Positions 1 to 7,181 of a stretch of 50,753 bases of DNA are shown here, piece after piece (position 1 is the first letter of the stretch; each line of letters begins with the position of its first letter). A model generated the notes under the pieces. The model saw nothing but the letters and a program-made list of their open reading frames with translations, had not been told where the DNA came from and ran no database searches. A program made the position numbers and the translations under genes. Where the stretch lies: contig JACRBM010000069.1 of NCBI GenBank assembly GCA_016219275.1, positions 1 to 50,753 of the forward strand, in the 5' to 3' direction. Source of the stretch: Chloroflexota bacterium. GTDB taxonomy: Bacteria > Chloroflexota > Anaerolineae > UBA4142.

Positions 1-183
1 GTAGTCGGTAATCGTCGTGATCTGGGCAACGTCGGAGGCGCGGGGTGTGCCAAACGCGTAATACGTTTGCCGTGAAGCCAGTGTCCCCGTTTGCGTGCTC
101 GCTACGCTGGTGCTTCCCAGGTGGTCGCCGTGCAGGTAGGTTACGGTGCTGGCGTGCTTCATCGCGACCCGTTTCGCGCCAAA
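1..183 (-). pseudogene. Second orphan Rhs core fragment, truncated by window edge
   Basis: Reading leftwards from 183, the minus strand encodes an Rhs-repeat core segment that begins FGAKRVAMK, contains YLHGDHLGSTSV and QTYYAFGTPR, and continues past base 1. An in-frame stop at 184-186 shows that the upstream part of an Rhs protein is missing, so this is a displaced tip and not a complete gene. It is a near copy of the core segment of the gene at 573-1592 (about 13 differences in 180 bases, counted by eye). In Rhs loci such orphan core/C-terminal modules lie in tandem downstream of a full-length gene and can supply new toxin tips by recombination. Its variable C-terminus lies outside the window. 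Confidence 0.7.
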
Positions 184-218
184 CTAGGAGTATTTGGCAA
201 CTCTTGCCATCTTTCGGT

Positions 219-563
219 TCATTTCAACTTGTGCTTCTTTTTTCCCTGCTTTTCCCAGAATTCATTGCCAACCTGTTGAATATAGGTCCCGGCAAAGGTC
301 ATAATTGTTATCAGCAGAGAAAGTAGTACTGGGATTTCAAGATTTTCCTCGATAGTATTTGCAGGAACAGACACTAACCAGGAAGCCAGAGATAAGCATA
401 GAAAAGCACCAATTCCTGCGGTAATTCCGAGAGTTGCAGAAGTTTTCAGTTTTCCCATCTCCTTGGCGCGTGTCAAGAATATGTATATTGAATACCCAGT
501 AGTTCCAAGCACGATGAAAAGTGCCAAGAGAACAACGCATGAGGTTTGGATCTGTTCAGGCAT
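219..563 (-). CDS. Small membrane protein, candidate immunity protein of the adjacent Rhs tip
   Basis: This 114-residue protein has three hydrophobic segments (about residues 8-30, 43-65 and 76-95) and a Lys-rich C-terminus. I do not recognise a family. It starts 9 bases after the Rhs tip at 573-1592 and ends just before the next Rhs core fragment, which is the usual slot for an Rhs immunity gene. Its base composition is clearly more AT-rich than the housekeeping genes further right, as is common for exchangeable toxin/immunity cassettes. A membrane-bound immunity protein would fit a toxin acting at the membrane. The immunity role is inferred from position only. Confidence 0.55.
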   Translation of the reverse strand: MPEQIQTSCVVLLALFIVLGTTGYSIYIFLTRAKEMGKLKTSATLGITAGIGAFLCLSLASWLVSVPANTIEENLEIPVLLSLLITIMTFAGTYIQQVGNEFWEKQGKKKHKLK

Positions 564-572
564 TTGCTAACC

Positions 573-1592
573 TTATCTGCATCCTGAAAGACCTGAACCA
601 GTGATTGAAACTGGTCCGGTACATGGAATAGAAGGACCAAGGATATCGTTGGCGAAGAAATGCGTTGTCGAGACAGCGGTGCAGAAAATGGATTCTGGAA
701 TAAAACCCAAGGCTGTTGCAGTTACACTGTCAGCAGTCGCTGCCCCGAGCTGAACACCGCCAGGGATTAGTTTGGTTTCACCTGCAATCACATCCCCGGA
801 ACTAGTGAAAATTGTTCCTCCTACTGACAGGATGCTCGAGATATTGCGGAAAGGTTCACCGACACGTTCGCCCCAATTTACTCCGCCTACAATTCCTGCC
901 AAAATTGCTCGCGGATCCTTTCCAACAACTGCGGCATAAACTCCTGCAAGACCACCACCGCCGACTGTAGTGCCGGCCGCAATAGTATCGAATCCCATTG
1001 ACGCGGCGTCGAAACCTGAACCTATGACGTACAAGACTCGTGCAATATCGCGCCGCCGTGAATCGTCTCCTGTCTTCACCGGCGGTCTTGGCCCTTCATC
1101 TCCCGGCTCGCCTCCTCCACTATCAGCACCCACCCCGATGAAGGGAAAAAACACGCGACTGCTAGATTTGGCTCCTGTTCCACCTCCTCCTCCCCCATCT
1201 CCAGCGTCATCGCACTCATTTATTTCGCATCCATCATGCCCCGTCGGATCGGTGTACTTGACTGGGTTGTTTAGCGTGTACGCATAGCGGTTGAGACTTT
1301 GCGGATTGTACATATTGGGTATAATCGTATCGGGTTGAGTCCAGCGGTTAAGATAAGCGTCGTAATAGCGCGCATTGTAAAACATCAACCCAGCACTGGT
1401 GTCCGCGCGTTGCCCAGTAAACGTGAAATCGGTAATCGTCGTGATCTGGGCAACGTCGGAGGCGCGTGGGGTGCCAAACGCGTAATACGTTTGCCGTGAA
1501 GCCATTGTCCCCGTTTGCGTGCTCGCTACGCTGGTGCTTCCCAGGTGGTCGCCGTGCAGGTAAGTTAAGGTGCTGGCTTGCTTCATCGCCAC
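573..1592 (-). CDS. Orphan Rhs core with variable C-terminal (putative toxin) domain
   Basis: The 339-residue product opens inside an Rhs core (residues about 4-118: YLHGDHLGSTSV, TFTGQRADTSAGLMFYNARYY, SLNRYAYTLNNPVKYTDPTG) and switches after the DPTG boundary to an unrelated tail. The tail has an acidic Gly-rich linker (about 120-170) and then roughly 170 residues rich in Gly, Ala and hydrophobic stretches. The frame stays open upstream only to base 1637, and recognisable homology begins at GAQRVAMK, so the N-terminal Rhs shell is absent. The GTG at 1592 may not be a true start. The tail matches no nuclease or deaminase motif I know; its hydrophobic, glycine-rich character would fit a membrane-active domain, but this is a guess. 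The likely immunity gene follows 9 bases downstream. Confidence 0.7.
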   Translation of the reverse strand: MAMKQASTLTYLHGDHLGSTSVASTQTGTMASRQTYYAFGTPRASDVAQITTITDFTFTGQRADTSAGLMFYNARYYDAYLNRWTQPDTIIPNMYNPQSLNRYAYTLNNPVKYTDPTGHDGCEINECDDAGDGGGGGGTGAKSSSRVFFPFIGVGADSGGGEPGDEGPRPPVKTGDDSRRRDIARVLYVIGSGFDAASMGFDTIAAGTTVGGGGLAGVYAAVVGKDPRAILAGIVGGVNWGERVGEPFRNISSILSVGGTIFTSSGDVIAGETKLIPGGVQLGAATADSVTATALGFIPESIFCTAVSTTHFFANDILGPSIPCTGPVSITGSGLSGCR

Positions 1593-1604
1593 GCGTTGTG
1601 CGCC
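1425..1604. repeat. Direct repeat of the Rhs core segment (partner 1-180)
   Basis: Bases 1425-1604 align without gaps to bases 1-180, with about 13 mismatches. The repeat covers the conserved core just upstream of each variable tip and so provides a ready substrate for homologous tip exchange. The 235 bases between this repeat and the next gene (1605-1838) hold no gene that I can support. Confidence 0.85.
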
Positions 1605-1838
1605 AACGCCATGTGATGAATCACACGGCTGATGAGATCAAGCCCGCTGAAGTGGGCTGGCGCGCAATCGGCTTTGAGCTACCCAGGACCGCCGTCAATG
1701 TGAGTGCAATTAAACGCATCGCTTGCGACACAGAAGAGATGACAACGGGCAACCCCGAAACTAAACGGACAGACCCTGGGACGTGCAGTGTCCGTTCAAT
1801 TCGATTTCATCCGTCGTCATCTTCATGTTGCCGCGCGC

Positions 1839-4568
1839 TTAACGATCGGGCGAAACCTTGGGACGCGGCAAAGGTTCGGGTAAAGACCTTGGCTTGACGG
1901 GAGCTTTGAACGCAGGACCTGCACTCGAGTTTGCAAAACTCACCCGACGATAATAGTACGACATGCCGTACCCGCCATCGGGACCGTACACCCCGACATA
2001 CCAACCATACGTCACATTTGGTACAAAGCCACCGGGAAGACTGTTGAGCGTAAAGTTGCCGACATATCCCAACGGGACCGTTGATGCCGCAAGATTGGGA
2101 TTTGTTGGATCGAATAGATTCCACTCATAACTATCGGTTGGTGTGGCGGGACGAACACCCCACGAAAAGGTAGCTGGCACATTGACTTTGTTTCCTGACA
2201 ACGGCGATACCAGTGTGATGTTCGCGATGTCAAAGTCGCCGATCGCGACATCACTTGTCCCGGCAAAGGACGTCAATACGCGTGTTCCCCAGTATGCGAG
2301 CCGCGTACTCGCCGCAGAGTTCACGTACCGCACATAGTACCGTTGCCCAGAACCGAGTGCCGATGCAAAGAAAGTGTACTTGCCATCTGTTGCAGTACTG
2401 GCGGTTGCCACCGTTGACCAGGCAGAGCCATCGTAGAAACGTAATTCCAAGGGTACGCCGGCGGCGGGCGTTCCGTTGTCGGTGACGTAGCCATAGATTA
2501 TGGGAGGCATAGAAATTAATGGTAAAAACACATGCGGAAAACTGACCTCTACTGTGGCTGTGCGCGTGAGAACAACACCATCACTATTAATAATCGCAGA
2601 ATTAGTTATCGGCGTCCCGAATGCGAGTCCCGGTTTGATATTCGTCCGGAAAGTAATTGTCACATTTGCACCTGCGTTAACTGTACCAGCCCAGGTAATA
2701 ACACCATTGGAATAATTGGCATTCCCACTGGTTGCGTTCAACGATCCATTCTTGTATATGAGTTCTATCGGCAAAGTATCTGATACCAAGACATTGCTAG
2801 TATTAGTAACACCTCGGTTAGCAAGCGCAATGGTATAATCTACCGAATCACCTTGGTCTCCTGTGCTCTTGCTTGCTGTCTTGGTTGAAGTTGCTAAACG
2901 ACTAATAACTTCAAATCCTTTAGAGATCGTACGTATTTCTCCACCACCATACATGGTTGCCGAATTTGTGATAGTTTTCCCTACTGTCGTGGTCTGGTTC
3001 ACGGTGGCTCCAAAAGTAATTGTGACTTGACCTCCCGAATTCACATTTCCATTCCAAGTTATCATCCCGCCGCTATATCCAAACACACCGCTCGTAGCAT
3101 TCAATGTACCCACATTATAATTCAATGTGGATGGTAACGTATCAGTTATCAGAACGTTTGAAATATTGCTATTCCTACTATTTTGAACCACCAACGTAAA
3201 AACCACCGAATCACCAATTACTGCTGAGGTCTTATTAACATCCATAGTGGAATACTCAAGTGGCTGAGTTTCGAACGCCCCAATATCGCATCTGTCAGAA
3301 CGCGCCAGGCCGCGTTGATCAATCGCCAAGATATTGCCTTGATTGTCGCTGCATCCCGCTGGATTGCCTGCATTGATGGCTGGACTTCCAAGCAGCAAAG
3401 CATGCGCCAACGTAGAACCGCCATTATCTTGGAGTAATCCTAATTTAGGATCGAGATTTGTTAAATCGCTTCCAACAAGTGAACAGTTGCTATTATATCG
3501 CACAAGGTTATACCCCAAACTGTTTACTGTCCCCGCGTAGCCCGGTTCGATGGAACAATCTTCCGTGCTATTGTTGGCAATTAGTGTGTTTTTCAAATTT
3601 ATCGTTCCGAGATAGTTTTTGATTCCAGCCCAACCATTGTTACTTATTGTAGCATTGTTCAAGCTCACTGATCCACTCCAAGTCAAAATGCCAACACCAT
3701 ATGTATTGCCGCTAACAGTAGTGTTATCCAGGGTCAAAGCCCCAGAAAACCCCAAAATCCCACTCCCGCTAGTCTCACCCAAAAGTGTATTACCAGTAAC
3801 AGAAGTATTACTCAACACAAGAGTTCCCGAGTTGTATATCCCGCCTCCGCCATTGCCGGGATATCCCAACATGCCAGCCCTGTTATTGATAATATTAGTA
3901 TTGCTCACAGTTACTGAACCACCATTATTGTAGACGCCTCCGCCACTACTATCTGCTACATTCCCTTTGATGGTACTGTTTATTATAGTCAGAATGCTTG
4001 CTCCACCACCATTATAAATACCTCCTCCCAATCCAAAACTAGTAGCACTAGAAGAAGTGTTGCTAATAATCGCACTGTTGCTAACCGTCAGAGTACTTTG
4101 ATTATTGCTAATGCCACCTCCAGAACCGGCAAAATTCAGGTCAAAACCATTCTGAACTGCAAACCGATCAACGACAACAATATTTCCATTGCCAAGTAAA
4201 ATACCGCGCCTCACTCCCTGCCCATCAATCGTCGCCATCCCACTCTGCGTCGCGAACGTTGCCGCGTCCCATCCACCGGATAACGTCGCATCTTTGTTGA
4301 TGAGCACAACCTCACTACCCGTCCCAGTATACGTCCCCACCGCGACGCGAATCGTGTCGCCGGCAACGAAACCGGGCTTGGCAAGCGCGGCGTTGATGGA
4401 CGCGCACGCGGTTGCGGGAGTTTGGCAATCGCTGCCATCGCTTCCGCCATTTTTCACGTACCACACTCCCGCCGCGTGAACCGGTTGCGGAAGCGCCGAA
4501 AGTCCGAGCACCAACAAAGCCAAGATCATCGCGCCAAGAGCGAACATGATTCGGTAATGGGTGTTCAT
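1839..4568 (-). CDS. Secreted beta-helix protein with two DUF11 repeats (paralog A)
   Basis: The 909-residue protein begins with a Sec signal peptide (cleavage likely after QPVHA, residue 32) and a conserved entry module, AGVWYVKNGGSDGSDCQTPATACASI in part, typical of choice-of-anchor/right-handed beta-helix proteins. Residues about 130-400 are repeats of the N-x-S/T-I-x-x-N type forming a parallel beta-helix. Two DUF11-type Ig domains follow (about 440-540 and 560-670), then a carboxypeptidase-regulatory-like segment and a C-terminal domain containing GWYVGVYGPDGGYG. There is no LPXTG or transmembrane anchor; the tail is basic and Pro-rich (PRPKVSPDR). A GAGGAT ribosome site precedes the ATG. 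A cell-surface adhesive or polysaccharide-binding role is likely but unproven. It lies 72 bases downstream of its paralog. Confidence 0.8.
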   Translation of the reverse strand: MNTHYRIMFALGAMILALLVLGLSALPQPVHAAGVWYVKNGGSDGSDCQTPATACASINAALAKPGFVAGDTIRVAVGTYTGTGSEVVLINKDATLSGGWDAATFATQSGMATIDGQGVRRGILLGNGNIVVVDRFAVQNGFDLNFAGSGGGISNNQSTLTVSNSAIISNTSSSATSFGLGGGIYNGGGASILTIINSTIKGNVADSSGGGVYNNGGSVTVSNTNIINNRAGMLGYPGNGGGGIYNSGTLVLSNTSVTGNTLLGETSGSGILGFSGALTLDNTTVSGNTYGVGILTWSGSVSLNNATISNNGWAGIKNYLGTINLKNTLIANNSTEDCSIEPGYAGTVNSLGYNLVRYNSNCSLVGSDLTNLDPKLGLLQDNGGSTLAHALLLGSPAINAGNPAGCSDNQGNILAIDQRGLARSDRCDIGAFETQPLEYSTMDVNKTSAVIGDSVVFTLVVQNSRNSNISNVLITDTLPSTLNYNVGTLNATSGVFGYSGGMITWNGNVNSGGQVTITFGATVNQTTTVGKTITNSATMYGGGEIRTISKGFEVISRLATSTKTASKSTGDQGDSVDYTIALANRGVTNTSNVLVSDTLPIELIYKNGSLNATSGNANYSNGVITWAGTVNAGANVTITFRTNIKPGLAFGTPITNSAIINSDGVVLTRTATVEVSFPHVFLPLISMPPIIYGYVTDNGTPAAGVPLELRFYDGSAWSTVATASTATDGKYTFFASALGSGQRYYVRYVNSAASTRLAYWGTRVLTSFAGTSDVAIGDFDIANITLVSPLSGNKVNVPATFSWGVRPATPTDSYEWNLFDPTNPNLAASTVPLGYVGNFTLNSLPGGFVPNVTYGWYVGVYGPDGGYGMSYYYRRVSFANSSAGPAFKAPVKPRSLPEPLPRPKVSPDR

Positions 4569-4640: not shown

Positions 4641-7058
4641 TCAACGATTCGGTGCAACCTTGGGACGCGGCAGGTCTTCAACGGTTGGACGTGCGCGTGC
4701 CGGCGCATTTGGACGCGGTGCATTGCCTGTATTGTTAAAACCAACTACGTACAGATAGAATGATTCTCCGTATCCACCATCCGGGCTGTACACGCCGACA
4801 TACCATGCATAAGGCGTTCCCGTGCTGAAACCGGCGGGCAAACTATTCAACGTGTACCCACCGGTATATCCCAATGGGGCTGTCCACCACCACGGGTTGC
4901 CATCCGTGTAATCAATCAGATTAAACTCATAACTATCGGTTGGTGTCGCCGAACGCCGAGTCCACTGGAATGTTGTGGGCAGAGACACAAGCGAACCAGG
5001 TGCGGGTGCATTTAGTTCGATATTTCCAATATCGAAATCCCCGATTGCGATATTATCGCCCATCGTATAAGAGGTCAAAACGCGCGTCGCCCAAGACGCT
5101 AATGTTAGAGGCGAACCGGTATTGATATATCGAACATAATATCGTTGTCCACTTGTAAGGGTGGGAGGATTGAGGAATAGATATGTCCCATCTGGATTAG
5201 TTCTTGTGGTAGCCCGCGTTGTCCAGCCTGAGCCATTATAGAATCGCAATTCTAATGGTACGTATGAATATGAGATAGGTTGACCATTAAAAGTCACGCG
5301 ACCGTATATACCATTGATGCCTGAATCGGGAGAGCGACCAATAAGTGGAAAATGAATCGGCACGATTGGAGTTTTTATGTTAGCGGTACGCGTGTAGATA
5401 TTTGTTCCATCGTTAATCAGCGCCACATTGTTTGCAGACAGGTTGGGTAGTGTGCCAAGTTTAACCATTGCTTGATAGGTTACGGTTACACCCATCCCTG
5501 CAGTGATAGTCCCAGCCCAAGTTACGCTGCTACTACTCTGACCGAATGTACCGCTTGTTGCCGTAATGGAGTTGTCCACAAGTGATAAAACACTGGGTAG
5601 GGTATCCGTCATACGAATACTTGGATAACTAATTGTATTACGATTAATCATTGAGATTGTATAGGTTAGCTTATCCCCCGGCATAGGGTTCGATTTGTTC
5701 ACAGACTTGGCAACTGAAAGATTACCTTGCACCTCATACGCGCCAACATCACACCGGTCGGTTCGCGATACCCCACGCTGGTCGGTTGTTAATAGCCCGA
5801 TACTTCCCGAACAGCCAGTAGGGTTACCGGCATTGACTGCCGGACTAGTAACTGCTAATGCACGCGTTTTGGTTGCACCTCCGTTGTTCTGAAGCGAACC
5901 CAACTGCGGGTCCAAGCCGGTCAAATCATTGAATTTCAACAAACAATTCCCAACATTCTTCACAAGATTGTAACCTAAACTGTTTGCAGAACCACCGCGG
6001 AGAGCGTCAATAGAACAATCACTGTTGCCGGCTGTCCCGTTATTGGAAAGAATCGTATTCTGCAACGCGATTATAGTACCAAAAATCGTTATTCCGTTAC
6101 CTTCATTGTGACTGAGTGTTGTGCTATTCAAGGCGAGAGATCCGTACCATGTAGTAATTCCATCTCCACCTTGGTTATCACTTATCGTGCTGTTGTTCAA
6201 GGCAAGATCGCCTCCATTATAAATTCCTGCACCATCTCCAGCCAACATTGTGTTTCCACTTATTGTGCTACTCGTTATCGTCATCGTCGCCTTATTGTAT
6301 ATTCCACCACCATGGTTTAGATACCCCCCCGCGGTGTTTCCTTCCACGGTACTTGTATCCATCATAAGTTTTCCACAATTACGAATTCCTCCGGCATCTG
6401 TATTGCTTTGGTTATTACGGATGATCGTATTCTGTATCTGCATTTGACTAGAATAGCATTCATTAGCTATCCCACCGTCCCCTGTGTTATTTTCAACGAC
6501 TGAATCTCGAAGCGTCACTACACCGTTTGAATTGCCAATCCCACCACCCGAATTATTTTTGATAACAATGTTTCTCAATCCTAATCCTGATTCCATATCC
6601 ACAATCCCACCACCATAGATACCGGGAATACTATTGCCATTCTGAACTATAAAATTCTCCAAGGTTGCGTTGTTAATCCACGCGACCCATACCCCCAAGC
6701 GCGCCCCCTGCCCATCAATCGTCGCCATTCCGCTTTGCGTTGTGAATGTCGCCGCATCCCATCCGCCGGACAACGTCACATCTTTGTTGATGCGAACAAC
6801 TTCACTACCCGTCCCGGTGTACGTTCCCACCGCAACGCGAATCGTGTCGCCGGCGACGAAACCGGGCTTGGCAAGCGCGGCGTTGATGGACGCGCACGCG
6901 GTTGCGGGCGTTTGGCAATCACTGCTGTCGCTTCCGCCGTTCTTCACGTACCACACCCCCGCCGCGTGAACCGGTTGCGGAAGGGCTGATCGGACCAACA
7001 CAAGTAATGCTAACAGTACTGCACTCAAGACGATGGTGAATTTGGAACGAGTCTCCAT
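4641..7058 (-). CDS. Secreted beta-helix protein with one DUF11 repeat (paralog B)
   Basis: The product is 805 residues from the ATG at 7058, chosen because GGAGAC lies just upstream; an earlier in-frame ATG at 7088 lacks this. It has a signal peptide ending ALPQPVHA, the same entry module as paralog A, a shorter beta-helix (about 120-400), one DUF11 domain (about 440-540) and the same C-terminal module with WYVGVYSPDGGYG and a PRPKVAPNR tail. The N- and C-terminal modules are closely similar to paralog A, whereas the helix repeats differ strongly. The likely role is a surface or secreted structural or adhesive protein. It probably shares a transcript with the gene at 1839-4568. Confidence 0.8.
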   Translation of the reverse strand: METRSKFTIVLSAVLLALLVLVRSALPQPVHAAGVWYVKNGGSDSSDCQTPATACASINAALAKPGFVAGDTIRVAVGTYTGTGSEVVRINKDVTLSGGWDAATFTTQSGMATIDGQGARLGVWVAWINNATLENFIVQNGNSIPGIYGGGIVDMESGLGLRNIVIKNNSGGGIGNSNGVVTLRDSVVENNTGDGGIANECYSSQMQIQNTIIRNNQSNTDAGGIRNCGKLMMDTSTVEGNTAGGYLNHGGGIYNKATMTITSSTISGNTMLAGDGAGIYNGGDLALNNSTISDNQGGDGITTWYGSLALNSTTLSHNEGNGITIFGTIIALQNTILSNNGTAGNSDCSIDALRGGSANSLGYNLVKNVGNCLLKFNDLTGLDPQLGSLQNNGGATKTRALAVTSPAVNAGNPTGCSGSIGLLTTDQRGVSRTDRCDVGAYEVQGNLSVAKSVNKSNPMPGDKLTYTISMINRNTISYPSIRMTDTLPSVLSLVDNSITATSGTFGQSSSSVTWAGTITAGMGVTVTYQAMVKLGTLPNLSANNVALINDGTNIYTRTANIKTPIVPIHFPLIGRSPDSGINGIYGRVTFNGQPISYSYVPLELRFYNGSGWTTRATTRTNPDGTYLFLNPPTLTSGQRYYVRYINTGSPLTLASWATRVLTSYTMGDNIAIGDFDIGNIELNAPAPGSLVSLPTTFQWTRRSATPTDSYEFNLIDYTDGNPWWWTAPLGYTGGYTLNSLPAGFSTGTPYAWYVGVYSPDGGYGESFYLYVVGFNNTGNAPRPNAPARARPTVEDLPRPKVAPNR

Positions 7059-7181
7059 TCTAGTCTCCGTCGAACGATTTTGACGCACAAGATTATTTTA
7101 TCATTTGAGGGTAATGCCAGTCAATACAAAATCGGTTCCAAAAGAACACAAAAAGATAAATTTTCTTTACTTTTATCGGCA

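Follow-up and report, generated by a model that had tools for sequence, protein, structure and literature searches.

The left end of the window (the 50,753-nt stretch analysed here, which is the whole of contig C69 of a 6.16 Mb genome in 107 contigs) on balance probably belongs to an array made up of orphan Rhs-CT/immunity modules; the genome is that of an Anaerolineae-type member of the Chloroflexota. The modules appear to be built alike, from a 5′-truncated piece of the conserved RHS core, a C-terminal tip that varies between modules, and a small gene whose product is probably the cognate immunity protein. As it stands, the tip would not be delivered, since the module contains neither the remainder of the Rhs shell nor an export signal; recombination within the core of ∼120 codons would fuse the tip to a full-length rhs gene and turn it into a weapon, and the small membrane protein would protect the cell.

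All array features in the window are on the minus strand (Table 1). We observed two copies of the core in the form of a direct repeat (5-182 versus 1429-1606; 178 nt, 94% identical, both on the minus strand). In-frame stop codons, TAG at 184-186 and TGA at 1638-1640, set both copies apart from any longer rhs frame; two cores in the same direction, each stopped upstream in frame, had been proposed in an earlier sequence-only reading of this DNA, and the repeat and the stop codons agree with it. The open frame of copy 2 (354 codons, 576-1637, with a GTG at 1592) contains an RHS-associated core domain (TIGR03696; 69.5 bits against a cut-off of 32.5 bits; ORF residues 36-119), and this core fragment terminates at a DPxG-type junction, NNPVKYTDPTGH. 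The 5′ truncation leaves at most 134 codons before the core end, with the other parts of the shell and an export signal missing. The closest relatives of the C69 core come mostly from Chloroflexota MAGs. Codon statistics favour the frames given in Table 1 for the core, the tail and the small gene; the G+C content is 42% in the small gene, 55% in the core and 57% in the window.

Table 1. Features of the putative orphan Rhs array at the left end of the window
Feature	Position	Strand	Remarks
RHS core copy 1, 5′ part	1..186	-	In-frame TAG 184-186, ATG at 162; runs off the contig end at base 1, rest on C81
114-aa three-helix membrane protein, candidate immunity protein	219..563	-	Three hydropathy peaks, codon statistics, all-helical model
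Shine-Dalgarno-like AAGG	571..574	-	Overlaps the tip A stop, 7 nt ahead of the small gene ATG; read from the sequence
Tip A, candidate toxin tip	573..1052	-	Moderately hydrophobic, 18% Gly; ∼120-residue domain in common with the L059 tip, then ∼22 residues to the stop
Gly/Asp/Pro-rich linker, core to tip A	1053..1235	-	From translation; no family match
RHS core copy 2	1236..1637	-	Ends at NNPVKYTDPTGH; in-frame TGA 1638-1640; limits from TIGR03696 and the open frame

C69 breaks off at the left end of the window, and another contig, C81, terminates in 98 bases that are identical to window bases 1-98. On C81 the core of copy 1 proceeds to its DPSGH junction, behind which there is a different, hydrophobic tip of 236 residues (tip B), followed after 12 nt by a gene for a membrane protein of 295 aa, in which three segments are TM-like. 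Copy 1 was analysed as two separate, unjoined pieces; with the joint taken from the 98-base overlap, the order of features across C81 and C69 is likely to be core, tip, membrane gene, core, tip, membrane gene. The two tips have no significant match to each other, and the 114-aa and 295-aa partners are unrelated. Further tips had been expected to the left of the window; the next tip is indeed present on C81, whereas a flank with no rhs gene or additional tips would have counted against the proposal.

The tail behind NNPVKYTDPTGH comprises ∼220 residues counted from this junction, rather than the 170 given earlier, and its first ∼65 residues form the linker. That the tail would be of an unrecognised type was borne out. 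Searches of Pfam and NCBIfam with the whole copy 2 ORF reported the core alone, with the tail left without a match; PADLOC and PDB sequence searches with the tail produced nothing significant, and a plasmid search gave no match. Within Pfam, NCBIfam, PADLOC and PDB sequences the tail also had no significant match to the described CDI type 10, Tse5 and Tse4 tips. Among 396 genomes of the class we found one good match, in a genome of a different family (locus L059, G104:C312), with 38% identity to tip A in a local alignment of ∼120 residues (z = 9 in 2000 shuffles). The L059 tip comes after a degenerate RHS core with an in-frame stop and extends ∼65 residues past the shared domain, in comparison with ∼22 residues in tip A; no recognised domain was found in this extension, and the contig ends behind the tip. 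As the tail recurs behind another RHS core, it is a recurring Rhs tip and not a one-off extension. A search with a profile of both tails, covering 400 genomes from the phylum and also the order of G104, detected no third member. Weak tail matches in two other genomes (G008 and G130) were dropped, since the ORFs there belong to other proteins.

The start codon of the small gene (ATG at 561-563) is separated by 9 bases from the stop codon of tip A (573-575, minus strand), which is the spacing that the sequence-only reading had reported. The same reading had described the product of the small gene as a three-helix membrane protein, and this description holds: the 114-aa protein has hydropathy peaks at residues 10, 46 and 77, and a single-sequence structure model is all helical with a mean pLDDT of 73.5. 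The loops, as read from the sequence, fit the positive-inside rule, with loop 1 and the C-terminus basic and loop 2 acidic. A genome search with this protein returned weak matches only and no convincing homologue; therefore, its pairing with tip A is drawn from gene position. Two weak matches from the same family were dropped because the ORFs seen there are unrelated housekeeping genes. In the family searches on these loci, weak eCIS_core, RnfE and diacylglycerol-kinase matches were set aside as below cut-offs or insignificant. Immunity proteins of the CDI ionophores have only ∼30% in common inside one group (PMC11630599); by this analogy, the absence of a convincing relative would not be unusual for an immunity protein.

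A search of the genome with TIGR03696 identified three cores, located on C69, C81 and C106. Comparison of the cores in 40-bp windows showed 87-100% identity between copies 1 and 2 for most of their length, with a drop to 55-65% in roughly the final 150 bp ahead of the tip. The C106 core has 41-90% identity to the C69 and C81 copies in a mosaic pattern, where the last ∼80 bp of the copy 2 core (80-90%) and the middle of the copy 1 core (77-80%) are similar to C106. A mosaic of this kind would be the pattern expected from recombination within the core; it neither dates nor proves an exchange.

The only full-length-like rhs frame of the genome is on C106 (L027, 2594-9025, plus strand). There, a DDE transposase gene (897-2624, minus strand) separates the remainder of this gene from an rhs-like piece that lies upstream, so that the full-length rhs gene is probably interrupted. 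An intact full-length rhs gene was not found in this genome, the C106 frame being the only long one; with no such partner gene found, active tip exchange in this genome is no more than a conjecture. Upstream of copy 2 there is a gene for a secreted protein (1839-4568, minus strand) and not a full-length rhs gene; a position behind a full-length rhs gene is usual for the main locus, but orphans need not all have it. We considered and rejected a contractile injection system as the delivery route, as no gene of the sheath family PF04984 was found in the genome.

Tandem cores were also observed in relatives. In an order-level survey with 12 RHS-bearing genomes they appeared on contigs of G137, G237, G196, G071 and G292; same-strand cores in a row were seen at loci L033, L034, L035, L036, L037 and L038. 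Locus L033 (G137:C206, JACRPR010000237.1) is from the same family as the genome of the window. It has a long rhs frame upstream, with a SUKH-1 gene (PF09346, 58 bits) behind the tip of this frame; an orphan core then carries a 149-aa tip with two hydrophobic segments, with a gene for an 84-aa three-TM protein 17 nt on; the tip of the next orphan core matches DUF2380 (56.3 bits, over the cut-off) and SitA6 (51.8 bits, below the cut-off). The presence of recognisable toxin and immunity families in the L033 array is independent evidence that such arrays are toxin/immunity arrays. L033 also indicates that hydrophobic tips paired with small three-TM proteins make up one of the cassette types in these arrays. 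An all-against-all comparison detected no similarity between the membrane-type tip/partner pair of L033 and tip A with its 114-aa protein. In two other pairs of loci the tip and the partner are co-inherited between genomes, with identities of 82% (tip) and 63% (partner) for L073/L076 and of 78% and 72% for L035/L070. The proposal that the window carries an orphan Rhs tip array is thus supported: same-strand cores in tandem, with tips and small genes that are unrelated, are found repeatedly in the order, at L033 behind a long rhs frame and with known families.

It is quite possible, if somewhat doubtful, that tip A acts at the membrane, by insertion or depolarisation. We infer such an action because the partner is a three-helix membrane protein and because hydrophobic tips in the order prefer membrane partners. 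In a tabulation of 32 pairs of a tip and the next ORF (a small table, with next ORFs chosen mechanically, that includes related pairs and the two pairs of the window itself), a multi-TM partner was observed for 5 of the 7 tips with two or more TM-like segments and for 2 of the 25 others (Fisher p = 0.002). Tip A itself is among the latter two, having a multi-TM partner and no two TM-like segments. Its hydropathy maximum is 1.34 over 19 residues, with no segment exceeding 1.6, the TM threshold; an AlphaFold prediction of the tail with its one homologue had a pLDDT of 28 and gave no usable fold. The earlier suggestion of a membrane-acting toxin of an unknown type is plausible at most: the membrane partner and the trend among tips agree with it, the modest hydropathy of the tail speaks against it, and neither a library match nor a usable fold prediction lends it support. 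A further, speculative step would be to see in tip A and the L059 tip the founders of a new family of Rhs tips that act on membranes in Chloroflexota and are neutralised by a new family of three-helix immunity proteins; we regard this as a tentative proposal, less likely than not. Cell envelopes of Chloroflexota differ from those of proteobacteria, where such membrane-acting toxins are known.

Membrane action would not be needed if the Gly-rich domain shared with L059 were an entry or pre-toxin domain of an orphan Rhs module, the toxic end being very short, truncated or lost. The longer run of the L059 tip past the shared domain (∼65 residues versus ∼22) points in this direction, and Gly-rich hydrophobic stretches do precede nuclease-like/HINT and DUF2380/SitA6-like domains at L068 and L033. 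The L059 extension, however, is likewise without a recognised domain, the partner of tip A is a membrane protein, and the small gene follows after 9 nt, with a Shine-Dalgarno-like site over the stop codon, as in an intact cassette; a lost or minimal toxic end is thus an unlikely explanation.

Lower still is the likelihood that the core fragments, tip and small gene are decaying remnants of an inactivated rhs locus, functionless now. Both the tail and the small gene are open and have coding-type codon statistics in their frames, tips and partners are intact and co-inherited in relatives, and known orphan modules of similar appearance were functional when tested (PMC3150448); on the side of decay are the probable interruption of the full-length frame on C106, the further core fragment that C83 holds fused to other sequence, and the in-frame stop in the L059 core. 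One could also suspect the assembler, whose handling of repeats might have produced the core copies or their position, given that copy 1 lies exactly at the contig end with the break inside the repeat. Yet the two copies disagree at ∼6% of their positions and are bordered differently on the 5′ side, the end of C81 reproduces copy 1 exactly over 98 bases and then leads to a different tip, and arrays of this kind sit within contigs in other assemblies; an artefact is very improbable.

The array of orphan modules, which we prefer, is similar to the orphan rhs-CT/rhsI and cdiA-CT/cdiI modules of enterobacteria (PMC3150448) in having a 5′-truncated core up to a DPxG-type junction, a variable tip and a small downstream gene, as well as several modules in a row and transposases nearby. 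It differs from them in that it comes from Chloroflexota, that no intact full-length rhs gene was found beside it and that its tip and partner families are undescribed; also, it is known here from sequence alone. In E. coli EC93, the orphan immunity gene was shown to be transcribed at its orphan locus (PMC3150448). Activation of an orphan toxin by recombination with the main rhs gene is reported in Salmonella (PMC3967940), and a catalogue of 2012 (PMC3482391) already included polymorphic toxins with RHS repeats from Chloroflexi. The L033 array has the same succession: an orphan RHS core with its hydrophobic tip, a small gene for a three-TM protein (84 aa, starting 17 nt behind the stop codon) and then the next orphan core; the long upstream rhs frame and the recognisable toxin and immunity families distinguish it from the array of the window. 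A small hydrophobic membrane protein beside a hydrophobic, Gly-containing tip is likewise found in CDI ionophores (PMC11630599), Tse5 (itself an Rhs protein; PMC9637101, PMC10684867) and Tse4 (PMC12169545). The immunity proteins of CDI ionophores are two-helix hairpins of 72-100 residues, in comparison with 114 residues and three helices here.

What is new is the particular tip/partner pair and its context, the architecture of the array being already known. The orphan Rhs toxin/immunity array, worked out in enterobacteria, would be extended to Anaerolineae-type Chloroflexota, with tandem cores in several of the 12 RHS-bearing genomes of the order, and a tip/partner pair not described before, one half of it a membrane protein, would be added. 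The locus may serve as a test case for Rhs tip swapping and delivery in a genome where no contractile-injection sheath gene was found.

Several other observations were made at these and related loci. A better-supported membrane-type pair than that of the window is present at L073 (G237:C78, core end 1578) and L076 (G071:C15, core end 1016), where a hydrophobic Rhs tip is followed 115 nt downstream by a gene for a 144-aa four-TM protein. At L068 (G237:C355, core end 585, minus strand) a Gly-rich hydrophobic stretch comes directly after the RHS core; a HINT-like region follows within the same tip, whose C-terminal end and the DUF2380/SitA6-like tip of L033 are related. An HEIVH motif is present in the rhs tip of C106, and a PD40 beta-propeller protein is encoded behind this tip. 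Beta-propeller-like proteins of 336-420 aa were found behind Rhs tips, in place of small immunity genes, at L027 (8384-10051), L037, L069 and L078; with the exception of the one at L027, these proteins are relatives of one another, at 24-38% identity. As candidate immunity partners, such proteins would be unusually large.

On C81, a 486-aa protein encoded downstream of the array (L026, 13045-14505, minus strand) ends in DQRY.AGIP.GTI...TTYGDACM.YEGI.Q; the core fragment on C83 (L028, 7608-7940, minus strand) is fused to the same ending. In the window, 1839-4568 and 4641-7088 (minus strand) are tandem paralogous genes for large secreted proteins of 909 and 815 aa, which have a similar N-terminal signal-like stretch and a similar C-terminus; the first of them matches DUF11.
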